Shown: piece by piece, positions 29,754-40,507 of the stretch
Layout: each line of letters starts with the position of its first letter
How positions within the stretch are numbered: position 1 is the stretch's first letter
DNA from: Streptomyces griseiscabiei
Lineage (GTDB): Bacteria > Actinomycetota > Actinomycetes > Streptomycetales > Streptomycetaceae
DNA: 64,000 bases
Assembly: GCF_020010925.1 (NCBI RefSeq)
Contig: NZ_JAGJBZ010000001.1
Location: forward strand, 2,046,001 to 2,110,000
Direction: 5' to 3'
Made by a program: the position numbers and the translations under genes
The notes under the pieces: model-generated
Databases searched by the model: none
The model's input: the letters and a program-made list of their open reading frames with translations, nothing else
Told to the model about the DNA's origin: nothing

Positions 29754-32414
29754 TCAGGTCGCTGTGCCGTGCGCCGCCTTCCGGGCGCGCCGGTGCAGGA
29801 GCCAGCCCGTCACGGTGAGCGCGGCGGCCGAGGCGGCCACGCCGAGCACGGTCATACCGGTGGAGGCGAGGCTGCCGCCGCCCCCGGTGGTCGTGGTGCC
29901 GCCCGTGCTCGTGCCGGCGGACGAGCTTCCGGCGGACGTCGAACCGCCGCCGGAGCCACCGGAGGTGGACGTGCCGCCGTCGGTGTCGCCGCCACCGGTG
30001 GTGGTCGTGTCACCGCCGCCGTCGTCGGTGTCGACCGGGTCCTGGCCGACGAAGGCGACGGGGACCTTGACGTCCTGCGAGCGGTCGCCGGACAGGGTGT
30101 GGTCGGCGCGGGTGGCGAGGACACAGGTGGCCTTGAAGCAGTCGGTGTACTCGTCCTTGGCGTCGACGGTCAGCTCGACCTCGAACGTGCCGCCGTCCTC
30201 GTACGGGATCGCCAGCTCCTCGCCGTAGTCGGGCGGGTTGGAGGAGATCCACGCGGAGGAGTGCGACCCGCCCGTCATGTCGACGCCGCCGATGCACGGG
30301 GTGGGCAGTTCGCCGGCGCCGTTGTCGACGCAGAGGGCGACGTAGATGCCCTTGTCCTCGTCGTAGCCGGAGCCGGTGACCTTCAGGGTCTGCTTCTCGG
30401 TGGCGAGGTTGTTGACCGGGGTGACGGTGAGCTTCTGGCCGTCGGGCCCGGTGACGGTCTTCGTGCCGGACGGCTTGTCGTCCTCTCCGTCGCCGTCCCC
30501 GTCGCCGCCGCCGGTGGTGTCGTCGGTCTCGGTGACGGTGAGGGTGAAGGGGGCGGTGCGGGTGGTGCCGACGGAGTTCTTGAACACCGCGCGGTACTCG
30601 TAACCGTCCTGCGCCGCCCGTGCCTTGAAGGTGTACGTGTTCGCCGTCGCGCCCTTGACCACGGACCAGGTCTGGGCGCCGTCGGTGCTGACCTCCCAGG
30701 TCACGGTGGGTTCGGGGGTGCCCTCGGCCGCCGCGACGAAGGAGACCTCGTCGCCCGGGGCCACGGTCCGGGAGGTCGGGGTCTGGGTGACCTTCGGGGA
30801 CATCCGGCGGTCGAGCTTGGTGATCTCGCCCTCGGAGGGGCTGCCGACGTAGACGGTGGTGCCGCCCGGGGCGACCGCGAGGGAGGCGGAGCCGTTCTGG
30901 GACTCGTTGTCGGCCAGCTTCGTGGGTACCGCGGCCGGTGCGTAGGAGGTGGTGTCGTACACGGCGAGGTGGCTGGTGCGGTCGCCGCCGTTGCCGGAGT
31001 CGCCGTTGTCCTGCCAGACGACGAAGGCCCGGCCGGTGGCGGTGTCGAAGGCGAGGTCGGCGGCCTGGTCCGCCTCGGCGCCGGTCGGCGCGTCGATGGT
31101 CTTCAGGAGCTTGGCGTCCTTGTCGTGGACGCGCACCGTGGTGCCGCTGCCCACCCAGACGTTGCCGGTGGCCGGGTCCGCCTCGATGAACTGGACGTTC
31201 GCGGAGGGGAGTTCGGCCGAGGCGGTCACGGTGAAGGAGTCGGTGTCGATCCGGCGCAGGGTGCCGCCGGCGGAGCCCGCGGACCAGGCCGCCTTGTGGG
31301 CCTTGTCGACGCCGAGCGCGGAGCCGCCCTCCAGGGTGAGGGTGCGGTTCTCCAGCGGGACGGCCGTCGCGGTGTCCACCTCGGAGAGGGTGGCGCCCTG
31401 GGCGACCAGGACGGTGGTGGTCTTGGTGCCGGGGCCGATCCCGGTGATGTTGGCGCCGGCGATCCATTTGCCGGTGACGGCCGCGTCACCGGTCTCGGCG
31501 GTGCCGATGCCGCGCAGCGCGAACTGGAAGACGGCGCCGTCGCCGGCGAGCGGGGCGGCGATCCGTACGACGGCGCGGGGCGCGAGGGTGCCGGTGGTGC
31601 CCGGGGCCTGGGCGACGTGGCCGAGGCTCTTGCCGTCCGCCGGGTCGAGGATGTGCAGACCGCGCTCGTCGACCGTGCCGGAGGCGGCGAAGTTGTCCGA
31701 ACCGGCGTACAGCTTCCCGGTCGTGGGGTGCAGCATCAGGTCGTTGACCTTGCCCGCCGCGGTGAACGCGGCGGACTCGGCGTAGCTGACCGTGCCGGCG
31801 GGTACGTCCTCGCCCTCGCCGCCGTCCCCGCCGCCGGTGTCCTGGCCCTCGAAGGCGACCGGGACACGGACGTCCTGGGAGCGGTCGCCGGAGTTGCGGT
31901 GGTCGACGCGGGTGACGACGGAGCAGACGACCTCGGTGCAGTCGACGCCGTTGTCCTCGGCCTTGATGTCGAGTTCGACGTCGAAGGTGCCGCCGTCGCC
32001 CCAGGCGACGGCGAGGGTGCCCTCGTACGGGTCGCCCTTGGGCACGATCCAGTGGGAGGAACTGCCGGTGCCGCTCTGGTCGGCGCCGCCGATGCACGGG
32101 GAGGGAATCTTGCCGTCGCCGTTGTCCTTGCACAGGGCGACGTAGATGGCCTTGGCCGTGTCGTAACCGGAGCCGGTGACCCGCAGTTTCTCGCCGTCCG
32201 GGTCGAGGTCGGCGGAGGCGGAGACGGTCAGTTTCTGGCCGTTCGCGCCGAGTCGGGTCTTCGGGGTGTCGGCGGCCTGGGCGGCGGTGCTCACCGTGAC
32301 GGCGGTGACCGCGGCGGCCACCAGGACGGCGGCTCCGAGAAGCGCTGCGGGGCGTCTCAGCCGCGGCCGGGCGACCCGGCCCGGCCCCCGCCGCTCCGTC
32401 GTGTCGTCTCTCAT
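29754..32414 (-). CDS. large LAxTG-anchored surface protein with two neocarzinostatin-like domains
   Basis: 886 aa from ATG 32414 (GAGGAA upstream). In order: signal peptide (1-48); neocarzinostatin-like domain 1 (about 52-175); propeller-like repeat region (about 195-520; SLAVAPGGTTVYVGSPSEGEI, DLAFDTATGRAFVVWQD); Ig-like domain (about 535-630, TPEPTVTWEVSTDG); neocarzinostatin-like domain 2 (about 650-775); Thr/Gly linker; LASTG at 849-853; a helix; RRARK. LAxTG is the class E sortase signal of Streptomyces. Each NCS-like domain has YVALC...PCIGG and a DC-x4-C pair spaced as in neocarzinostatin. It is last in the iron-box-controlled gene set, after an internal terminator. A surface heme or ligand relay is plausible but unproven. 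Confidence 0.82.
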   Translation of the reverse strand: MRDDTTERRGPGRVARPRLRRPAALLGAAVLVAAAVTAVTVSTAAQAADTPKTRLGANGQKLTVSASADLDPDGEKLRVTGSGYDTAKAIYVALCKDNGDGKIPSPCIGGADQSGTGSSSHWIVPKGDPYEGTLAVAWGDGGTFDVELDIKAEDNGVDCTEVVCSVVTRVDHRNSGDRSQDVRVPVAFEGQDTGGGDGGEGEDVPAGTVSYAESAAFTAAGKVNDLMLHPTTGKLYAGSDNFAASGTVDERGLHILDPADGKSLGHVAQAPGTTGTLAPRAVVRIAAPLAGDGAVFQFALRGIGTAETGDAAVTGKWIAGANITGIGPGTKTTTVLVAQGATLSEVDTATAVPLENRTLTLEGGSALGVDKAHKAAWSAGSAGGTLRRIDTDSFTVTASAELPSANVQFIEADPATGNVWVGSGTTVRVHDKDAKLLKTIDAPTGAEADQAADLAFDTATGRAFVVWQDNGDSGNGGDRTSHLAVYDTTSYAPAAVPTKLADNESQNGSASLAVAPGGTTVYVGSPSEGEITKLDRRMSPKVTQTPTSRTVAPGDEVSFVAAAEGTPEPTVTWEVSTDGAQTWSVVKGATANTYTFKARAAQDGYEYRAVFKNSVGTTRTAPFTLTVTETDDTTGGGDGDGDGEDDKPSGTKTVTGPDGQKLTVTPVNNLATEKQTLKVTGSGYDEDKGIYVALCVDNGAGELPTPCIGGVDMTGGSHSSAWISSNPPDYGEELAIPYEDGGTFEVELTVDAKDEYTDCFKATCVLATRADHTLSGDRSQDVKVPVAFVGQDPVDTDDGGGDTTTTGGGDTDGGTSTSGGSGGGSTSAGSSSAGTSTGGTTTTGGGGSLASTGMTVLGVAASAAALTVTGWLLHRRARKAAHGTAT

Positions 32415-32464
32415 GGGTTCCTCATTCGTCGGGTGCGTCCGCCGCACACCCGGGGGACGCCGAG

Positions 32465-32493
32465 GGCCGGGCCCCCGTCGAAGGGGCCCGGCC
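32465..32493 (-). terminator. terminator after the secreted NCS-like gene
   Basis: Perfect 11-bp arms (GGCCGGGCCCC / GGGGCCCGGCC) with a 7-nt loop, 11 bp after the 32504 stop codon. It separates the secreted-protein gene from the large LAxTG gene and so suggests partly independent expression. Confidence 0.7.
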
Positions 32494-32503
32494 GGTGGGG
32501 TGG

Positions 32504-33043
32504 TTACGAGAAGCTGACGGGGACGTGCACGTCGTACTTGCGGTCGTTGCTGTCGAAGTGGTCGGCACGGGTGACCACGGCACAGGTGACGTCCTCGCCG
32601 CAGACGCTGCCGTCGTCGAGGGTGGCCTTGACGAAGATGTTCACGCTGAAGGTGCCGCCGGTGCCGAACTTGGAGCTGTTGGCGAAGAGGCCGCCGAAGG
32701 TGTTGTTGATCCAGTGCGAGGCGCCGGTGGCACCGCTCTCGTCCTGGCCGCCGAGGCACGGGGTGGGCTTGTTCGCGCCCTGCGCGCCGTTGACCACGCA
32801 GAGGCCGACGTAGATGCCCTGGCCGGTGTTGAAGCCGGAGCCGGAGACGGTGATGACCTGGCCGGACGCGGCGGCCGAGTTCGGCGCGGTCACGGACAGG
32901 TTGTAGGTGGTGCCGCCGTCGACGACGGTGCGGGTCGCGGTGGCGGCGGAGGCCGAGGTGGCGAGGCCCAGCGTCAGGGCGGAGGCGGCGACGGCGGCGA
33001 GACCGGCGCGGGCGGCGGTACGGGCGGAAGGAACGACTCTCAT
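32504..33043 (-). CDS. secreted single-domain neocarzinostatin-like protein
   Basis: 179 aa from ATG 33043. Signal peptide ARAGLAAVAASALTLGLATSASA, then one NCS-like Ig-fold domain: SGQVITVSGSGFNTGQGIYVGLCVVN...TPCLGG, GTGGTFSVNIFVKATLDDGSVCGEDVTCAVVTRADH and YDVHVPVSF. Two Cys pairs match those of the anchored paralogues and the neocarzinostatin chromoprotein. No sorting signal, so it should be released, like the secreted hemophores of other Gram-positive heme systems. A perfect 19-bp iron box lies 51 bp upstream (33094-33112), so it is expected to be derepressed in iron starvation. Ligand unknown. Confidence 0.82.
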   Translation of the reverse strand: MRVVPSARTAARAGLAAVAASALTLGLATSASAATATRTVVDGGTTYNLSVTAPNSAAASGQVITVSGSGFNTGQGIYVGLCVVNGAQGANKPTPCLGGQDESGATGASHWINNTFGGLFANSSKFGTGGTFSVNIFVKATLDDGSVCGEDVTCAVVTRADHFDSNDRKYDVHVPVSFS

Positions 33044-33093
33044 CGGGAGAGGACCTTTCTCGTCAGCGGTTGGCGGGAAACACCCGTCAACAC

Positions 33094-33112
33094 TTAGGTA
33101 AGGCTTACCTAA
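33094..33112. promoter_or_regulatory. DmdR/IdeR iron box, perfect palindrome
   Basis: TTAGGTAAGGCTTACCTAA is a perfect 19-bp palindrome matching the actinobacterial iron box (TTAGGTTAGGCTAACCTAA) at 17 of 19 positions. It is 51-69 bp upstream of the secreted NCS-like gene. Confidence 0.85.
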
Positions 33113-33167
33113 CCTTGCTCTTGATCTCTTTGTCAACAGAAAGCAAAGGACGCCACAAGTGCGTTGC

Positions 33168-34166
33168 TCAGGACGGGCTTTCACCGGCAAGCACGGTGAA
33201 CTCCGCGACGGCCTCCCGGCCTCCGGTCACGGAGTACAGCCGTACGGTGTGCGCGCCCTCGGTCGCGGTGCCGTACACCGGGAAATCGCGGGCCACTTGG
33301 CCCGAGTCGTCGGCCACGGCCTGGTAGCGGGTGTCGTCGTCGATCGCGACCAGCACGACCTCACCCGGCGCGAAGCCCGTGCCGGTGACCTGTTGTTGTC
33401 CGTCGCCGGGCGCGAGGCTCGCGAGCTTCACGGCCGCGGAGGGGCCGGCCGCCGCGGACTCCTGTCCCGCGTCCGCCCCTGAGCCGGGTGCCTCCGTGCC
33501 GCCGGCGTCCGGGGCCGGGGAGGCGGCGTCGTCGCCACCGCCGGACGTGTCGTCCGGAGCGTCCTCCGGCCGCCCGGCCCCGGAGGCGCCGGTGCCCACG
33601 GTCACGTCGAGCGGGGCGAGTTCGTCCCCCGCCGCATACGTCCGCCCGCTCCACTCGGCGAGCAGCGCGGCGCCCTCGGCCGTCAGCGACACCCGCAGGC
33701 CCGACCAGGTCGCGCCGCCGCCGCGTACGGTCGGCGCGGAGGACCCCGAACCGACCTCGGCCAGCGTCAAGTCGCTCCTCTCCCCCGCCTGTTCGACCCG
33801 TACGGCGAGGGTGCCCGTACCGCCGTCGAGCCGCAGGCGCAGCTCGTCGAGGGTCAGGGGGGCCGTGCCGGGGCCGGCCAGCCGGATCGAGCCGTCGAAG
33901 GCGACGTCGGCGTCGCCGGCCTTCGGGGTCGTGCTGCCGCCGTCGACCGGGAACCAGGTCCGGCCGCCGGAGCCGCGCACGGCGGGCGCCCCGGCCGTCA
34001 CCGTCACATCGGCGCCGCCGACGGCCCCGAACGCCGGGCCCCAGCTCGCGAATCCGCCGGACACCGCACGGGGCGCCCCGGCCGCGTCCTGTGCCGTCGC
34101 CGTGCCCTGACAGAGCAGGGCGAGCAGCGCGCCCGCCGCCGCCACGGCGGCACCAGGTCTGTTCAT
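33168..34166 (-). CDS. HtaA-domain protein (heme-transport associated)
   Basis: 332 aa from ATG 34166 (a GTG directly before is an alternative; AAGGA 10 nt upstream). Signal peptide VAAAGALLALLCQGTATAQ. The HtaA domain covers about 30-190: SGGFASWGPAF, RTWFPVDGGSTTPKAGDADVAFDGSIRL and LRLRLDGGTGTLAVRVEQ. In corynebacteria HtaA domains bind heme at the cell surface through Tyr and His. A Gly/Ala/Asp-rich linker leads to an Ig-like module (VKLASLAPGDGQQQVTGTGFAPGEVVLVAIDDDT) that echoes the NCS-like proteins. No LAxTG or C-terminal helix, so anchoring is unclear. It sits between two NCS-like genes, 98 bp after the first. Confidence 0.8.
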   Translation of the reverse strand: MNRPGAAVAAAGALLALLCQGTATAQDAAGAPRAVSGGFASWGPAFGAVGGADVTVTAGAPAVRGSGGRTWFPVDGGSTTPKAGDADVAFDGSIRLAGPGTAPLTLDELRLRLDGGTGTLAVRVEQAGERSDLTLAEVGSGSSAPTVRGGGATWSGLRVSLTAEGAALLAEWSGRTYAAGDELAPLDVTVGTGASGAGRPEDAPDDTSGGGDDAASPAPDAGGTEAPGSGADAGQESAAAGPSAAVKLASLAPGDGQQQVTGTGFAPGEVVLVAIDDDTRYQAVADDSGQVARDFPVYGTATEGAHTVRLYSVTGGREAVAEFTVLAGESPS

Positions 34167-34265
34167 CACCTCGAAGTCCTTCCTGGAACGTCGGCCGCTC
34201 GGCCGACGAGACGCTCCGCCGCGCGGGCGTCGACTGTCGCGTGGACGGCTGTCGTCGGCATGCCG

Positions 34266-35069
34266 TCAGCTCGCGTCGGAGGTACGGCGTCGGCGCGCCC
34301 AGAACCAGGCCGCGCCGCCCGCCGCGACCAGTCCGGCCGCGGTGATGCCGAGCGGTACGGCGGCACTGCCGGTGTCGGCCAGCGGGTCGTCCGACGTGCC
34401 GGTGCCGCTCGACGTGCCGCCGGTGCCGCCGGTGCGCCCGGTGCTCCCTGTGCTGCCGGTCGTGGCCGTGCTCGCGTCGGCCGACGGCGTCGCCGTGCTG
34501 TCGGCGCCGGAGTCGTCGCCGCTGCCGCCGTCGGCACCGGCGAAGGTCACCGGGATACGGACCGTCTGGCTCTGGTCGCCGCCCCGGATGTGGTCGTTGC
34601 GGGTGATCACGGAGCAGGTCACACCGGACTTGCCGCAGTCCGTGTTGGCGTCCTTGGCCCGCACCTTGAGCGACACGGAGAACGTGCCCTTGTGCCCGCT
34701 GCCCTTGTAGGGCTTGGCCAACCCCTCCCCGTACGAGGGCGGGTTGGAGGAGATCCACACCGAGGCACCGGAGTCGCCGGACATGTCGACGCCGCCGATG
34801 CAGGGCGTGGGGGTCTTGCCGGCGCCGTTGTCCACGCAGAAGGCGACGTAGATGCCCTTCTCGGTGTTGTAGCCGGTGCCGGACACGGTGACCGTCTCGC
34901 CGTCCGGGTCGAGTCCGGAGGATCTGGAGACGGTGAGCTTCTGGCCCTCGGGGCCGGTCGCGGAGCCGCCGGCGGCCGTCGCCGAGGGGGCCGGGAAGAG
35001 GATCAGGGCACTCGCGACGGCGACGGCCACCGGGGCCGCGCGCAGGGCTCTCAGGCCACATCTGTGCAT
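34266..35069 (-). CDS. LAxTG-anchored neocarzinostatin-like surface protein
   Basis: 267 aa. ATG 35069 is preferred (GGGAG 11 nt upstream); ATG 35090 lacks a ribosome site. The signal peptide (APVAVAVASALILFPAPSATA) is followed by one NCS-like domain: SGLDPDGETVTVSGTGYNTEKGIYVAFCVDNGAGKTPTPCIGG, VDMSGDSGASVWISSNPPSYG and DANTDCGKSGVTCSVITRNDH. Then come a Thr/Ser/Gly linker, LADTG at 230-234, a helix and RRRR. The distance from LAxTG to the C-terminus (38 residues) equals that of the large paralogue. It is first in the leftward set and shares iron box 35098-35116 with hmuT. Confidence 0.85.
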   Translation of the reverse strand: MHRCGLRALRAAPVAVAVASALILFPAPSATAAGGSATGPEGQKLTVSRSSGLDPDGETVTVSGTGYNTEKGIYVAFCVDNGAGKTPTPCIGGVDMSGDSGASVWISSNPPSYGEGLAKPYKGSGHKGTFSVSLKVRAKDANTDCGKSGVTCSVITRNDHIRGGDQSQTVRIPVTFAGADGGSGDDSGADSTATPSADASTATTGSTGSTGRTGGTGGTSSGTGTSDDPLADTGSAAVPLGITAAGLVAAGGAAWFWARRRRTSDAS

Positions 35070-35097
35070 CGGTGTCAGCACTCCCACCATAGGAAAC

Positions 35098-35116
35098 TCA
35101 GGTAAGGCTAACCTAA
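35098..35116. promoter_or_regulatory. DmdR/IdeR iron box between the NCS-LAxTG gene and hmuT
   Basis: TCAGGTAAGGCTAACCTAA matches the iron-box consensus TTAGGTTAGGCTAACCTAA at 17 of 19 positions. It lies 29 bp upstream of the leftward gene and 46 bp upstream of hmuT, and could repress both when iron is sufficient. Confidence 0.8.
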
Positions 35117-35162
35117 AGTAAACGAACATCCGGTTGGAGCGGTAGACATGGAAGGCGGTCCG

Positions 35163-36221
35163 ATGCGTAGGTCCGGAAGACCTCAACTCACCATTGCCCG
35201 AAGGGGAGTTGCCGCACTCGCCGTTGCATTCGCGATGCTGGCGGCCGGATGCGCAGGCGGCGACGGGGGCAGCGAAGACAAGGGGGCGAAGCCGTCGCCG
35301 TCGTCGGCGGGCGCCCGCGCGGCCGCGGCCCAGAAACAGCTGAGGACGAATTCGCTCGTCCCGCTGGACGGTGCGGCTCCGACGCCGGAACTGCCCGTCA
35401 CCGTCGACTCCTCCGACGGCCGGAAGGTCACCGTCGAGGACGCCTCACGCATCCTGCCGCTCAACGGGGGCATCGCGGAGATCGTGTTCACCCTCGGCCT
35501 CGGTGACAAGGTGGTGGGCCGGGACATCACCGCGACCTTCGAGGAGGCCAAGGGCCTTCCGCAGGTGACGAAGGCGCACGATGTGAGCGCGGAGAGCGTG
35601 CTCTCGCTGGAGCCGACCGTGGTGCTCGCCGACACCGACACCGGGCCCGGTGAGGCCGTCGACCAGATCCGGGACGCCGGGATTCCCGTGGTCGTCCTCG
35701 ATCCGGCCAACGACCTCTCCGACGTGAGCACACGGACGACGCGGGTGGCGCAGGCGCTGGGCGTGCCCGCCGCCGGGAAGGCGCTCAACGCGCGGTTCGC
35801 CGACGAGCTGAAGGCGGCTCGGGCGGCCGTGCCCGAGGGGAGCCGGCCGAAGGTGGCGTTCCTGTACATGCGGGGGTCGGCGGCGGTCTATCTGATCGGC
35901 GGGAAGGGGTCGGGGGCGGACTCGCTCATCGACGCGGCGGGGGCGGAGGACGCGGGGGTGGCGGCGGGGCTGGACAAGCCGTTCACGCCGATCACCAGTG
36001 AGGCGCTCGTCAAGGCTCAGCCCGATGTGATCCTCATGATGAGCAAGGGACTCGAGTCCGTGGGCGGGGTCGACGGGCTGGTGGAGATCCCCGGGATCGC
36101 GGAGACGCCGGCCGGGATGGACCGGCAGGTGGTGGACCTGGAGGACGGGGTGCTGCTCAGCTTCGGGCCGCGTACGCCGTTGGTGATCGACATCCTGGTG
36201 GAGCGGCTGCACGCGGGGTGA
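35163..36221 (+). CDS. hmuT: heme ABC transporter substrate-binding lipoprotein, HmuT type
   Basis: 352 aa from ATG 35163, behind GGAAGG; an ATG at 35148 overlaps that site. Lipobox LAAGC (Cys30). The cluster A-II/BtuF-like fold shows ILPLNGGIAEIVFTLGLGDKVVGRDITATFEEAKGLPQV, LSLEPTVVLADTDTGPGEAVDQIRDAGIPVVVLD and FTPITSEALVKAQPDVILMMSKGLESVGGVDGLVEIPGI, which are features of HmuT/PhuT heme-binding proteins. It would hand heme to an HmuUV permease/ATPase, but neither gene follows: an inverted repeat and the convergent paa operon come next. It is divergent from the surface-protein genes across an iron box. Confidence 0.85.
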   Translation: MRRSGRPQLTIARRGVAALAVAFAMLAAGCAGGDGGSEDKGAKPSPSSAGARAAAAQKQLRTNSLVPLDGAAPTPELPVTVDSSDGRKVTVEDASRILPLNGGIAEIVFTLGLGDKVVGRDITATFEEAKGLPQVTKAHDVSAESVLSLEPTVVLADTDTGPGEAVDQIRDAGIPVVVLDPANDLSDVSTRTTRVAQALGVPAAGKALNARFADELKAARAAVPEGSRPKVAFLYMRGSAAVYLIGGKGSGADSLIDAAGAEDAGVAAGLDKPFTPITSEALVKAQPDVILMMSKGLESVGGVDGLVEIPGIAETPAGMDRQVVDLEDGVLLSFGPRTPLVIDILVERLHAG

Positions 36222-36236: not shown

Positions 36237-36381
36237 TTGTCGGGTGCGGGTGGGTGGGGGTTCTCGCGCAGTTCCCCGCGCCCCTGAAAGGTCTGCGGGC
36301 CGAAAAAGCAGGGCGCAGCCCGCTTTTTCAGGGGCGCGGGGAACTGCGCGACCAGCCCCCACCCACCCGCACCCGAACAAC
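36237..36381. repeat. long inverted repeat of the common Streptomyces type, probable terminator
   Basis: Arms of about 50 bp (36237-36289 and 36326-36381) are near-perfect reverse complements and contain CAGGGGCGCGGGGAACTGCG, a motif I recall as dispersed many times in Streptomyces genomes. It lies between the converging hmuT and paaE genes and should act as a bidirectional terminator. It also marks where hmuUV would be expected. Confidence 0.75.
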
Positions 36382-36395
36382 CAGCCGCCGAACCC

Positions 36396-37691
36396 TCACG
36401 TATCGAAGTCCACCGTCAACGTCTCCGACACCGGATACGACTGGCACGTCAGGACGTACCCCGCGTCCACCTCCGCGGGCTCCAACGCGAAGTTGCGCCG
36501 CATCTCCACCTCACCGGAGGTGACCCGCGCACGGCAGGTGCCGCAGACGCCGCCCTTGCAGGCGAAGGGCAGGTCGGGGCGGGTGCGTTGGGCGGCGTCG
36601 AGGACGCTGCGGTCGCGGGGAAGCGCGGCGGTGGTCGTGCGGCCGTCGAGGGTGACGGTGACCTCGCTGACCGGGCCCTCGGCGGCGGCCTCCTCGTGCC
36701 GGGCCTCCCGGACGGGCTCGTCGTCGGCGTAGAACAGCTCCTGGTGGACACGGTCGGCCGGTACGCCGAGACCGGTCAGGACCGACTGGGCGTCACGGAC
36801 CATGCCGTGCGGGCCGCACAGCCACCAGTGGTCCGCCGTGCCGACGTCGACCAGGGCGCCGATGAGCGCCGAGAGCCGGTCGGCGTCGAGGCGGCCGGAC
36901 AGCATCTCGGCCTCGCGGGGTTCACGGGACAGCACATGGGCGAGCTGGAAGCGGGCCGGGTGCAGGTCCTTCAGGTCGGCCAGCTCGTCGGCGAACATCA
37001 CCGTGCCGGTGCGGCGGTTGCCGTAGAAGAGGGTCACCGTCGAACGCGGATCGGCGGCGAGCACCGACTCGGCGATGGAGACCATGGGGGTGATGCCGGA
37101 GCCGGCCGCGATCAGCACATGGTGGCCGGGGGTGGCCAGGTCCGGGGTGAAGAACCCGGTGGGGCCCATCACCTCGACGGTGTCGCCGGGCCGTACGTCA
37201 CCGACGAGCCACGAGGAGAACAGCCCGCCCGGCACCACCCGCACCCCGATGCGCGGAGTCGTACCGGCCGGTGAGCAGATCGAGTACGAGCGGCGTTCGT
37301 CGCGTCCCTCGATCTCCCGCCGCAGCGTCAGCGACTGTCCCGGCGCGAACGCGAACTCCTCCGCCAGCTCCGCCGGAATCTCGAACCCGACGGCCACGGC
37401 GTCCTCGCAGAGCGGCTGCACGGAGGCCACCCGCAGGGCGTGGAAGACCGGACGGCGGCGGGCGCGCGGGCGCCCGCCCGAGCCGGTGGCCGCAGCGGCG
37501 GCAACAACGGCAGCGGCGGCAGCAGCTGTGCCGGACGCGCCAGGAGCGGCCGGGACGCCGGCGCCGGAAGCGGAGGGTGCCGGGCCCCTGGAGGGTGGCG
37601 GAGCCGTCGTGGTGTTCGCCGGATGCCCGGGCTCCGTCCGCACGCCTCCCGTCCGTTCTTCCCTGTCCGCGTCTGCTCTGCGGCCTTCCAT
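36396..37691 (-). CDS. paaE: phenylacetyl-CoA epoxidase reductase subunit PaaE
   Basis: 431 aa from ATG 37691, overlapping the paaD stop. It passes electrons from NADPH through FAD and a plant-type [2Fe-2S] centre to the PaaAC epoxidase. Domains: FAD binding (ERRSYSICSPAG), NAD binding (HVLIAAGSGITPMVSIAESVL, WWLCGPHGMV), and a C-terminal ferredoxin with CKGGVCGTCRARV and a distal Cys (YVLTCQSYPVS). Odd feature: about 85 extra residues at the N-terminus, Pro/Ala/Gly-rich with long Ala runs, make it roughly 75-80 longer than usual PaaE (~355 aa). Homology begins at FHALRVASVQPLCEDAVAV. Last gene of paaABCDE. Confidence 0.92.
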   Translation of the reverse strand: MEGRRADADREERTGGVRTEPGHPANTTTAPPPSRGPAPSASGAGVPAAPGASGTAAAAAAVVAAAAATGSGGRPRARRRPVFHALRVASVQPLCEDAVAVGFEIPAELAEEFAFAPGQSLTLRREIEGRDERRSYSICSPAGTTPRIGVRVVPGGLFSSWLVGDVRPGDTVEVMGPTGFFTPDLATPGHHVLIAAGSGITPMVSIAESVLAADPRSTVTLFYGNRRTGTVMFADELADLKDLHPARFQLAHVLSREPREAEMLSGRLDADRLSALIGALVDVGTADHWWLCGPHGMVRDAQSVLTGLGVPADRVHQELFYADDEPVREARHEEAAAEGPVSEVTVTLDGRTTTAALPRDRSVLDAAQRTRPDLPFACKGGVCGTCRARVTSGEVEMRRNFALEPAEVDAGYVLTCQSYPVSETLTVDFDT

Positions 37692-38224
37692 CAGATCTCC
37701 TTGACGTGCTCGAACGGCTCGCGGCAGGTGTGGCAGCGCCACAGGGACTTGCAGGAGGTGGCGGCGAAGCGGGAGGTCTCCTCGGTGTCGGCCGAGCCGC
37801 AACGGGGGCAGGCGACCGAGCGCCTGGTGGGTGACAGGAGGAGGGGGACCGGGCCTCGGGGGGCGGCTCCGGGCGGGGCGATGCCGTGCTCCGTGAGCTT
37901 GCGACGGCCGGCCTCGGTGATCCAGTCCGTGGTCCAGGGCGGGGTCAGGGCCGTGCGGATCTCCACCCGCTCGTACCCGGCGGCACGCAGTCGCGCCGCC
38001 ACGTCCGCGCGCATCTCCGCCATCGCCGGGCAGCCGGAGTAGGTGGGGGTCAGGCTCGCGACGACCGTGCCGTCGTCGGTCAGTTCCACGTCCCGCAGGA
38101 CACCCAGCTCGGCGAGGGTCAGCATGGGCAGCTCGGGGTCCGGCACCTGCTCGGCGATGTGCCGCGCGCGCCGGACGGACCGGGCGGACGGGTCGGACCG
38201 GATGCCGGTCGGTGTGGTCACCAT
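37691..38224 (-). CDS. paaD: phenylacetate pathway Fe-S assembly-type protein PaaD
   Basis: 177 aa from ATG 38224, overlapping the end of paaC by 7 bp. The N-terminal part is a MIP18/DUF59 domain (VPDPELPMLTLAELGVLRDVEL, LTPTYSGCPAMAEMRADVAARL). The C-terminal part carries a four-Cys zinc or Fe-S ribbon: CPRCGSADTEETSRFAATSCKSLWRCHTCREPFEHVKEI. PaaD is required in vivo for the phenylacetyl-CoA epoxidase and is believed to help mature the complex or the PaaE Fe-S centre. Translationally coupled to both neighbours. Confidence 0.93.
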   Translation of the reverse strand: MVTTPTGIRSDPSARSVRRARHIAEQVPDPELPMLTLAELGVLRDVELTDDGTVVASLTPTYSGCPAMAEMRADVAARLRAAGYERVEIRTALTPPWTTDWITEAGRRKLTEHGIAPPGAAPRGPVPLLLSPTRRSVACPRCGSADTEETSRFAATSCKSLWRCHTCREPFEHVKEI

Positions 38225-39045
38225 GTCGCCTCCGGATGGGCGCGGGCCACGCTCTGCAACTCGGCCAGCAGCGGCGCCAGATGCTCGGTGTGCTCGCCGG
38301 CGCGGCCCGCGCCCGCCAGCGGGCGGTACACCGGCATGGGCAGCCCGGCCGCCTCGGTGACCTGGCGGAGCACGGCGGCGACCTCGTCCCGTACGTCATA
38401 GGCGGTGAACAACTCGCCGAAGTACGGGGCCACTTGCTCCATCGCCTTACGGATCCGCCGATGTGACTCCGCCGTGCCGTCACCCAGCCGTACGGCCCAT
38501 TCGGCGGCGTACTGCCGGTGGTAGCTCAGCTCCTTGACGCCCTTGGCGGCGATCGCGGCGAGCACCGGGTCCGGGTGGCCGGTGAGCCGCTCGAAGTGCG
38601 CGAGGCGCCAGCTGGACAGGACGAGCAGCCGGACGATCGAGAACGCGAAGTCGCCGCAGGGGAGTTCGGCGAGGCGGACGTTGCGGAAGTCCTCGGCGTC
38701 CCGGAAGTAGGCGTAGGTGTCCTCGTCCCGCCCGGTGCCGTCGGCCTGCCCGGCGCGGGAGTACAGCAGCCGGGCCTGGCCGAGGAGGTCGAGCCCGATG
38801 TTGGCGAGGGCGACCTCCTCCTCCAGCTCGGGCGCGCGGGTGGTCCACTCGGCGAGCCGCTGGGCCGAGACCAGGGCGTCGTCGGCCAACGCGACGCACT
38901 CGGCGGCCAGTTCACCGGCGTCCACGCCCTCCGGCACGGTCGTGTCGACGCCGTGCAGGGGGTCCTCGAAGCCGGTGCCGTACGCCCAGCGGGCGTCGTC
39001 CTCGTGTCCCTCGGCCAGGGTCAGATAGACGTGGTCGTCACTCAT
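38218..39045 (-). CDS. paaC: phenylacetyl-CoA epoxidase structural subunit PaaC
   Basis: 275 aa from ATG 39045 with GAGGAG upstream. A ferritin-like four-helix protein that pairs with PaaA but lacks a full diiron site. Recognisable segments are EEVALANIGLDLLGQARLLYSRAG, EDTYAYFRDAEDFRNVRLAELPCGDFAFSIVRLLVLSSWRLAHFERL and KGVKELSYHRQYAAEWAVRLGDGT. It is needed for folding and substrate binding in the PaaAC heterodimer. It starts 10 bp after paaB and overlaps paaD. Confidence 0.94.
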   Translation of the reverse strand: MSDDHVYLTLAEGHEDDARWAYGTGFEDPLHGVDTTVPEGVDAGELAAECVALADDALVSAQRLAEWTTRAPELEEEVALANIGLDLLGQARLLYSRAGQADGTGRDEDTYAYFRDAEDFRNVRLAELPCGDFAFSIVRLLVLSSWRLAHFERLTGHPDPVLAAIAAKGVKELSYHRQYAAEWAVRLGDGTAESHRRIRKAMEQVAPYFGELFTAYDVRDEVAAVLRQVTEAAGLPMPVYRPLAGAGRAGEHTEHLAPLLAELQSVARAHPEATW

Positions 39046-39055
39046 ACCCTGCTCC

Positions 39056-39349
39056 TCAGATGTGCGGGACGTCGTCGGGGATGTCGTAGAAGGTGGGATG
39101 GCGGTACACCTTGTCGGCGCTGGGCTCGAAGAACGGGTCCTTCTCGTCGCGGGTGGAGGCGGCGATGTGCTCGGAGCGGACCACCCAGATCGAGACGCCC
39201 TCGTTGCGGCGGGTGTACAGGTCGCGGGCGTGGGTGAGGGCCATCCGGTCGTCGGCCGCGTGCAGGGAGCCCACATGGACGTGGTTCAGCCCGCGCTTGC
39301 CGCGCACGAACACCTCGTACAACGGCCAGTCCCGCTTCTCGGCGCTCAT
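39056..39349 (-). CDS. paaB: phenylacetyl-CoA epoxidase subunit PaaB
   Basis: 97 aa from ATG 39349, overlapping the paaA stop (ATGA). The small subunit bridges PaaAC dimers. Family signatures [55 protein letters not shown] and [22 protein letters not shown] are complete and the length is usual. Confidence 0.95.
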
Positions 39350-40350
39350 GCCACCGCTCCCTTCTCCGTACGGGCGGCCTGCTTGGCCGCGTGGGCGGTG
39401 GCCGCCTCACGCACCCAGGCGCCCTCCTCGTGGGCGGTGCGCCGCCGTTCCATCCGCCGCTCGTTGCACGGCCCGTCGCCGGTGATCACACGCTTCAGCT
39501 CCGACCAGTCGGGGGTGCCGAAGTCGTGCCGGCCGCGCTCCTCGTTCCACCGCAGCTCCGGGTCGGGGAGGGTGACGCCGAGCTTGTCGGCCTGCGGGAC
39601 GGTCATGTCGACGAACCGCTGCCGCAGCTCGTCGTTGCTGTGCCGCTTGATCTTCCAGGCCATGGACTGCGCGGAGTTGGGCGAGGCGTCGTCGGGCGGG
39701 CCGAACATCATCAGCGACGGCCACCACCAGCGGTCCACCGCGTCCTGCACCATCGCCCGCTGCGCCTCGGTGCCGCGCATCATCGTCAACAGCAGCTCGT
39801 AGCCCTGCCGTTGGTGGAAGGACTCCTCCTTGCAGATCCGCACCATCGCGCGCGCGTACGGCCCGTACGACGAACGGCACAGCGGGACCTGGTTGCAGAT
39901 CGCCGCGCCGTCCACGAACCAGCCGATCACCCCGACGTCGGCGAAGCTCGCCGTCGGATAGTTGAAGATCGACGAGTACTTCTGGCGTCCCTCGATCAGC
40001 CGGTCCGTCAGATCCGCGCGATCCGCGCCCAGCGTCTCCGCCGCCGAGTACAGATACAGGCCATGGCCGGCCTCGTCCTGCACCTTGGCGAAGAGGATCG
40101 CCTTGCGCCGCAGCGACGGCGCCTTCGTGATCCACTCCCCCTCGGGCTGCATGCCGATGATCTCGGAATGCGCGTGCTGCGCGATCTGCCGGACGAGCGT
40201 CTTCCGGTAGCCCTCGGGCATCCAGTCACGCGGCTCGATCCGCTGGTCCCGCGCGATCGTCGCCTCGAAATGCGTCCGGAGGGCGTCCTCGGTCTCCGGA
40301 GCCCCCTCGCCGCCCCGCGACGGCGCCCCGGCGGAGTCTGTCGTCGTCAT
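39346..40350 (-). CDS. paaA: phenylacetyl-CoA epoxidase catalytic subunit PaaA
   Basis: 334 aa from ATG 40350. The diiron oxygenase subunit makes the ring-1,2-epoxide of phenylacetyl-CoA. Helices with carboxylate/His ligands are visible: [22 protein letters not shown] (ExxH) and [17 protein letters not shown] (EExxH), plus the substrate-side segment [37 protein letters not shown]. First gene of paaABCDE, with PaaR-like palindrome 40376-40393 just upstream; overlaps paaB by 4 bp. The later pathway genes (paaG, paaZ, paaH, paaJ) are not here. Confidence 0.95.
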
Positions 40351-40375
40351 CGATACCAGCTTCCCAACCAAACCA

Positions 40376-40393
40376 ACCGACCATTCGTTCGGT
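40376..40393. promoter_or_regulatory. PaaR-like operator upstream of paaA
   Basis: ACCGACCATTCGTTCGGT is an imperfect palindrome 26 bp upstream of the paaA start. Its inner part ACCATTCGTTCGGT fits the ACCG-N6-CGGT core known for the actinobacterial TetR-type PaaR with one mismatch, including the central CG. ACCGACCATTCGG recurs in inverted form at 40508-40521. Confidence 0.6.
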
Positions 40394-40507
40394 ACCAGTG
40401 TGACGTGAATCGGGCGGCCGGGCAAGACCCGCACGCCCCCCGCCCACGATCAGCGCCTTCTTGACAGGCTCCGAGCCCTCTCGATTACATGGCGGTGACG
40501 CGCGGTA

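Follow-up and report, generated by a model that had tools for sequence, protein, structure and literature searches.

Neocarzinostatin-fold surface domains in a putative iron-regulated heme-uptake locus of Streptomyces griseiscabiei

Introduction

What do small domains that resemble the carrier protein of an enediyne antibiotic do at the surface of a streptomycete, beside genes for heme proteins? This question is raised by a five-gene locus in a 64,000-nucleotide (nt) stretch of the Streptomyces griseiscabiei genome (GCF_020010925.1, NZ_JAGJBZ010000001.1:2,046,001-2,110,000), which we call the window and whose positions are used for the features below. Four minus-strand genes, D, C, B and A, lie beside a divergent plus-strand gene, T; A, B and D share a domain with a predicted neocarzinostatin fold, C encodes a HtaA-domain protein, and T a HmuT-type lipoprotein. 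A sequence-only reading had taken the locus for a likely wall-anchored relay of heme (or another hydrophobic ligand) in which this fold replaces the NEAT domains of Firmicutes, and had known of no functional description of the domains. The latter agrees with the literature searched, apart from the listing and deletion of CwpG discussed below; no paper linking neocarzinostatin with heme uptake or HtaA was found in that search, outside which most subscription papers lay. Papers are cited by PubMed Central (PMC) number, and what is said of them holds for the passages that were available.

On the evidence set out here, the locus very probably belongs to heme uptake, and a surface domain like the neocarzinostatin carrier appears to help actinobacteria of soil and fresh water to capture heme iron. 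This would give a testable function to a domain recorded as hypothetical or as "neocarzinostatin apoprotein domain-containing", and suggests a route of surface heme capture in actinobacteria without an intact HtaA as well as a possible wider role for the enediyne carrier-protein fold.

Genomic linkage of the domain to HmuT

In a class sample of 296 genomes from 114 genera, the domain was present in 56 genomes (23 genera), and 51 of these 56 also encoded a HmuT-like protein (search with T, E <= 1e-25). The two matches lay on the same contig and no more than 1,580 bp apart in 48 of the 51 genomes, belonging to 21 genera as counted by hand; the three without a close pair were two Streptomyces genomes whose HmuT stands by a canonical HtaA (G056, G284) and one genome in which both matches fall at contig ends (G185). 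HmuT-like proteins at E <= 1e-40 occurred in 94 of the 296 genomes, and the domain was found in 51 of these 94 versus 5 of the 202 genomes without HmuT (Fisher p 2e-25, a value that is only a guide because related genomes are not independent). This genome context over 21 genera, together with the conserved heme ligands of HmuT described below, strongly supports the heme system that the sequence-only reading had proposed.

HtaA was present in 29 of the 56 domain genomes. Among 35 loci that we fetched, with open reading frames (ORFs) from a simple gene caller, nine carried the domain and HtaA in one ORF (L143, L144, L147, L149, L150, L152, L153, L154 and L155). The gene for HmuU (FecCD by Pfam) came next after that for HmuT in L144, L146, L153, L157, L160, L162, L171 and L173, which cover families f19, f36, f34, f17 and f25; an ABC gene was recognised by Pfam beside HmuT in L146, L157, L162 and L171, and an ABC protein was also encoded close by in L143. 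By gene sizes and strands, with no gene-by-gene scan, no HmuU or HmuV was recognised beside HmuT in L158, L159 and L161, so the separation of HmuT from HmuUV in the window, described below, may not be unique. The loci L144, L147 and L149 hold giant surface ORFs of about 2,400-2,600 aa with three HtaA domains and neocarzinostatin-fold domains.

Within Streptomyces, a public-genome scan with B returned 28 loci, of which 17 also held T and D; the order was T-D-C-B-A among the loci listed. The locus is present, for instance, in S. lincolnensis (L030). Only B and A were found within 10 kb in eight loci (L015, L018, L022, L036, L038-L041), and three others lay on short contigs (L023, L027, L042). 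Those eight, with L163, L164 and L168, show a two-gene version, B and a shorter A without T, D or C nearby, behind an iron-box-like site; no heme genes were found among three neighbouring genes in L163, L164 and L168. In one Streptomyces genome B is duplicated, and the additional copy (L016:3115-3744) has a separate iron box.

Among 150 Streptomyces genomes, 30 had the domain and 71 had HtaA, 62 of the latter with four or five matches; S. griseiscabiei has one weak HtaA match. A single HmuT-like protein (E <= 1e-40), encoded beside the domains, was found in 10 of the 11 Streptomyces that had at least four domain matches, the exception (G014) having one canonical HmuT and one fragment. Mutual exclusion of the domain and canonical HtaA loci was considered and is not claimed, since four or five HtaA matches also occur in three of these 11 genomes (G014, G022, G122).

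Fold and conserved residues of the domain

One domain occurs in four copies in the locus, two in A and one each in B and D. When the whole genome was searched in six frames with B, four related domains were found, all in this locus (next match, E 0.18); identity to B is 43-47% for the three other than B itself. The sequence-only reading's count of three proteins and four domains with two Cys pairs each was borne out by this search and by the Cys positions. Its statement that a DC-x4-C spacing is identical to that of neocarzinostatin, which we take to be C-x4-C, holds for both domains of A but not for B, where the spacing is C-x5-C, or for D, where it is C-x6-C, and a spacing shared by all the domains was accordingly rejected.

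A structural check of the likeness to neocarzinostatin supported it: a confident predicted model and its structure comparison point to the immunoglobulin-like beta-barrel of the PF00960 apoproteins, and we conclude that the domain is predicted to have the neocarzinostatin fold. At the sequence level, the Pfam model Neocarzinostat (PF00960) matched B and D below threshold (22.9 and 24.0 bits, cut-off 25) and A not at all among the matches listed at E <= 1, while 61 of 91 domain sequences matched it at E <= 0.01. NCBIfam chromo_anti likewise gave 26.4 bits for B and 33.7 for D against a cut-off of 86. A phmmer search of the PDB with B alone returned enediyne apoproteins (best E 0.019). The family profile retrieved ThiX (7qhm chain M, E 1.5e-9) as its only PDB match at E <= 10, and no enediyne protein, so that what ties the domain to neocarzinostatin is its fold, together with the weak Pfam and NCBIfam matches. 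The domain thus resembles the enediyne apoproteins neocarzinostatin, C-1027 and macromomycin (PF00960) in predicted fold, two Cys pairs and weak sequence similarity; it differs from them in falling below the family cut-offs, in its predicted wall-anchored and multi-domain forms, in its iron-uptake context, and in a signature of R126-x-D128-H129 ... R135 ... D138 (numbering of mature B, residue 1 being precursor residue 34).

The residues Y45, C49, P60, C63, G65, G66, W78, G97, F99, C115, C121, R126, D128, H129, R135 and D138 are among those invariant in 21 strong non-Streptomyces domains. In 17 weaker copies, R135 and D138 were kept in all, Y45 in 16, W78 and H129 in 13 each, and R126 in only four. 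Y45 and H129 would be the natural candidates for an iron ligand. In the alignment, ThiX of C. glutamicum has the Asp-His of the signature and all four Cys, one of them shifted by a column; it is a lipoprotein subunit of the bcc-aa3 supercomplex, whose soluble ThiX domain was not resolved (PMC8795186). As a member of the same family by profile, ThiX may handle heme or a related ligand beside that heme-rich complex.

The proposed replacement of NEAT found no support. No NEAT profile was among the Pfam matches listed for A, B, C, D and T (E <= 1) or for the 91 domains (E <= 0.01), and the companion domain in actinobacteria is the heme-binding HtaA domain, not NEAT; the absence of NEAT structures among the 50 structure-comparison matches listed carries no evidential weight. 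The Isd/NEAT proteins of Firmicutes form a wall-anchored heme relay. The window locus would work in a like manner, with one small domain, present in both secreted and sortase-anchored proteins, supplying a heme lipoprotein, and homology is not implied.

HmuT and candidate HmuUV genes at a distance

The T protein (357 aa; 35148..36221, plus strand) is a Peripla_BP_2 protein with a lipobox, LAAGC, recognised by eye. Its closest solved relatives are heme-binding proteins (5gj3, E 5.7e-56; CgHmuT, 5az3, E 1.7e-50). In CgHmuT the heme ligands are His141 and Tyr240, the latter hydrogen-bonded by Arg242 (PMC4926363); T His144, Tyr240 and Arg242 align with these three residues, and all 22 of the HmuT-like proteins in the alignment, T included, retain them. 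T is therefore placed in the HmuT type by its homology to solved heme substrate-binding proteins and by the axial His/Tyr with Arg, and it is the only HmuT-like protein found in the S. griseiscabiei genome.

HmuU and HmuV proved to be absent from the window locus, and candidate genes lie in a second locus, L178 (C1:3895000-3906000), about 1.8 Mb away. This locus contains, in order, an iron box with three mismatches, a heme oxygenase gene, an unassigned stretch, a FecCD permease gene, an ABC ATPase gene and a gene for an imelysin/cupredoxin (EfeO-like) protein, and is without HmuT and HtaA. The oxygenase (HmuO-type, at C1:3.899 Mb) is the one PF01126 heme oxygenase of the genome, in a search that covered PF01126 only. 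The FecCD permease is 53-66% identical to the HmuUs of L144, L146, L153, L157 and L160; compared with the HmuU of L162 it is 33% identical and only narrowly the best match in its own genome. The HmuU-like FecCD and ABC genes of L178 were the best match among the stretches of the genome searched, and are the putative partners of T. The simplest reading is that the window locus would supply the receptor and the lipoprotein to a HmuUV encoded elsewhere.

In S. coelicolor, homologues of HmuO, HtaA, HmuTUV and EfeOBU are encoded together at SCO2267-2277 (PMC12161575). L178 resembles this cluster and that of S. atratus (PMC10060970) in keeping heme oxygenase, HmuUV and Efe-like genes together, and is unlike SCO2267-2277 in that HtaA and HmuT are in the window instead, with the neocarzinostatin-fold proteins. 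Elsewhere in the S. griseiscabiei genome, a gene for a DUF2470-domain protein (L184:5548-6270) comes immediately after an iron-box-like site and may be a second gene for handling heme.

Degeneration of the HtaA domain in C

Gene C (333 aa, secreted; 33168..34169, minus strand) contains the only HtaA domain found in the genome (PF04213, residues 48-190, 33600..34028, minus strand; 53.7 bits, above the cut-off of 24), and a PDB sequence search with C alone gave no matches. HtaA-type domains hold hemin through an axial Tyr in helix 1, four residues past a Ser that contacts the propionate, and also use another (propionate) Tyr and a helper His that follows a Gly (PMC12494546). In 13 canonical HtaA domains from other genera, the axial Tyr, the Ser and the loop Tyr were present in all 13 and the helper His in 12. 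C has lost the axial Tyr, the Ser and the helper His and keeps only the loop Tyr. In an alignment of C with 12 orthologues, two of them truncated at the axial column and the N-terminal part uncertain, the rows with a residue at that column had Tyr in 0 of 11 and Ser in one of 11; the His column contained Ser, Pro or a gap, and the column of the last Tyr had Tyr or Phe. Inspection of C by eye showed no Tyr at the expected distance after its WG. C is homologous to HtaA, but classing it with the heme-binding HtaA domains would be unwarranted. Because its heme ligands are lost, the heme-handling role in the locus likely shifts to the neocarzinostatin-fold domains, which are likelier heme handlers than the HtaA domain of C.

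Compared with the Corynebacterium HtaA/HtaB-HmuTUV system (PMC4926363, PMC12494546), the window locus has the same type of HmuT with conserved axial ligands, a HtaA-domain partner and a surface-to-lipoprotein layout. It differs in adding neocarzinostatin-fold domains, which outnumber HtaA, in a HtaA that is without the heme-iron Tyr and the helper His, and in having HmuUV encoded elsewhere in the genome.

Iron boxes and locus layout

The sequence-only reading had placed two iron boxes at gene starts, and these were found again as DmdR/DtxR-type sites upstream of B-A (33094..33112, 51 bp before B) and between the divergent D and T (35098..35116, at distances of 29 bp from D and 32 bp from T). 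Each has two mismatches from TTAGGTTAGGCTAACCTAA, which we take to be the consensus. No site with two or fewer mismatches occurred in 200 simulated sequences of 64 kb that had the dinucleotide transition frequencies of the window. At three or fewer mismatches, the whole genome (10.6 Mb) contained 18 box matches (8 forward and 10 reverse, several being one palindromic site counted twice), and the reversed pattern used as a control gave 0 matches. The 28 relative loci contain 29 B starts, of which 27 have a box at this threshold (exceptions in L034 and L042), and 16 of the 17 relative loci holding both T and D have one in the T-D region (exception L026). Of 44 boxes in 535 kb of relative loci, only one (L042) lay outside these two places. 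Boxes in the promoters would place the locus in the DmdR/DtxR regulon, and suggest that it is regulated by iron.

The remaining observations of the sequence-only reading were confirmed overall, with small corrections. As it had stated, one protein appears to be secreted and two carry LAxTG motifs with 38 residues from the L to the end. The secreted protein is B (179 aa; 32504..33043, minus strand), which by eye has a signal peptide and no anchor, and one neocarzinostatin-fold domain. Gene A (886 aa; 29754..32414, minus strand) encodes, from N to C terminus, a signal peptide, a neocarzinostatin-fold domain (residues 50-190; 31845..32267), a beta-propeller, an I-set Ig domain (residues 540-627, 30534..30797; PF07679, 30.9 bits, cut-off 23.7), a second neocarzinostatin-fold domain (residues 650-791; 30042..30467) and a LASTG sorting signal (29757..29870), both neocarzinostatin-fold domains being recognised by similarity to B. 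Gene D (267 aa; 34266..35069, minus strand) encodes a neocarzinostatin-fold domain (34536..34973; similarity to B and the Pfam match given above), a linker and a LADTG sorting signal (34269..34382; NCBIfam TIGR01167, 17.1 bits, cut-off 15.9, E 0.0063). The features within A and D are all on the minus strand. A and D have the LAxTG motif, hydrophobic stretch and basic tail of class E sortase substrates, and are predicted to be wall-anchored through sortase. HtaA and HmuT had also been described as interleaved with these proteins; this holds for HtaA, which sits between D and B, and was rejected for HmuT, since T lies at the edge of the locus, divergent from D.

Proposed function and alternatives

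We propose an iron-regulated system of heme uptake, of which this locus forms the half at the cell surface. The neocarzinostatin-fold domains, that of B secreted and the three of A and D tethered to the wall by sortase, would capture extracellular heme, or an iron porphyrin resembling it, possibly in the same type of cleft that holds the chromophore in enediyne apoproteins, and would hand it inward to the lipoprotein T. T would then deliver the heme to HmuUV, and heme oxygenase would free the iron; HmuU, HmuV and the oxygenase would be supplied from the second iron-box locus. We consider this explanation as a whole probable. Of its parts, the binding of heme or an iron porphyrin by the domain itself is likely by a narrow margin, and the direction of transfer and the use of the distant HmuUV are presumed.

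Several observations weigh against this proposal. No HmuT match was found in five of the 56 domain genomes (G235, G255, G278, G353, G358), and 43 of the 94 HmuT genomes are without the domain, which is therefore not obligatory. Some Streptomyces have only B-A or only B, away from HmuT (e.g. G056, G284), so the domain may have a second role, and the HmuT frame of G131 holds one in-frame stop. ThiX, the relative found by profile, is a respiratory-supercomplex lipoprotein linked to thiamine and not to heme uptake in the passages available. CwpG of Actinoplanes missouriensis is, like A and D, a wall-anchored candidate, a putative sortase substrate with a neocarzinostatin-like domain (IPR002186); deletion of cwpG left growth and the sporangium phenotype unchanged, and the passages on it, unlike the present locus, carry no heme or iron link and show no heme or iron assay (PMC13251363).

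The domains might belong to a heme system without binding heme, docking hemoproteins, HmuT or wall polymers and so positioning heme-binding partners. The multi-domain architecture of A, with its propeller and Ig domain, would fit such a role, as would the ORFs of other genera in which the domain accompanies canonical HtaA domains able to bind heme themselves. In two Nanopelagicaceae loci (L162, L171), however, the domain protein adjoins HmuTUV in a genome with no HtaA match, and the only HtaA domain of the window has lost its ligands; we regard docking as a serious but rather unlikely alternative. Less likely again is that the ligand is another iron carrier brought in by this HmuT, for instance a siderophore, secreted coproporphyrin or some other molecule that is flat and hydrophobic. 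Streptomyces do release coproporphyrin (PMC10060970, PMC10881299), and the Peripla_BP_2 relatives in the PDB include siderophore binders, but the His/Tyr/Arg heme site throughout the HmuT-like proteins, the linkage to HtaA and HmuUV, and the heme oxygenase gene that this genome has behind an iron box all argue for heme.

It is very improbable that the domains are enediyne-type chromoproteins, or self-protection proteins against a toxic small molecule, that stand near HmuT by accident. The linkage to HmuT in 48 of 51 genomes, the iron boxes at the locus and its relatives, and the presence of the domain in streamlined aquatic genomes speak against this; the fold and the weak match of D to the enediyne chromoproteins speak for it. 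No antibiotic cluster or enediyne partner was found in the eight flanking genes scanned (25.3-40.4 kb), the rest of the window and the genome not having been searched for one.

Nanopelagicaceae and neighbouring genes

The proposal that the domain captures heme has a particular bearing on family f25, which accounts for 13 of the 56 domain genomes (1.3-1.8 Mb). A HmuT-like protein was found in 12 of these 13 genomes and a HtaA match in none. The named relatives of the L171 protein (G173, f25), all hypothetical proteins, are from Candidatus Planktophila dulcis, Candidatus Nanopelagicaceae and IMCC25003, and we infer from them that f25 is Nanopelagicaceae. In L171 and L162 the gene for the domain protein is divergent from that for HmuT, behind which are HmuU and an ABC gene; no iron box with four or fewer mismatches was found in either locus.

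The Nanopelagicales are described as heme auxotrophs (PMC10202952, citing Kim et al. 2021), and a 2020 paper noted that no heme synthesis pathway is on record for them and called for evidence that they secrete a hemophore or have a heme receptor in the membrane (PMC7527133). The 163-aa domain protein encoded divergently from HmuTUV (L171:9123-9614) is a concrete candidate for the heme receptor or hemophore so sought. We hold it an evenly balanced proposition that the neocarzinostatin fold ranks beside NEAT and HtaA as another, independent class of surface heme receptor, is present in at least 21 actinobacterial genera, and is the heme receptor of the Nanopelagicaceae (acI). If this is true, the enediyne apoproteins would have branched off, with a specialised role, from a broader family of surface proteins whose ligands are porphyrins or other flat molecules.

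On the T side, the locus is flanked by phenylacetate catabolism genes (36396-40434; by their domains two PaaA/PaaC-type, a PaaD-like and a PaaE-like), with which no functional link was seen. Between T and these paa genes, a long inverted repeat visible by eye (36262-36350) is perhaps a terminator.

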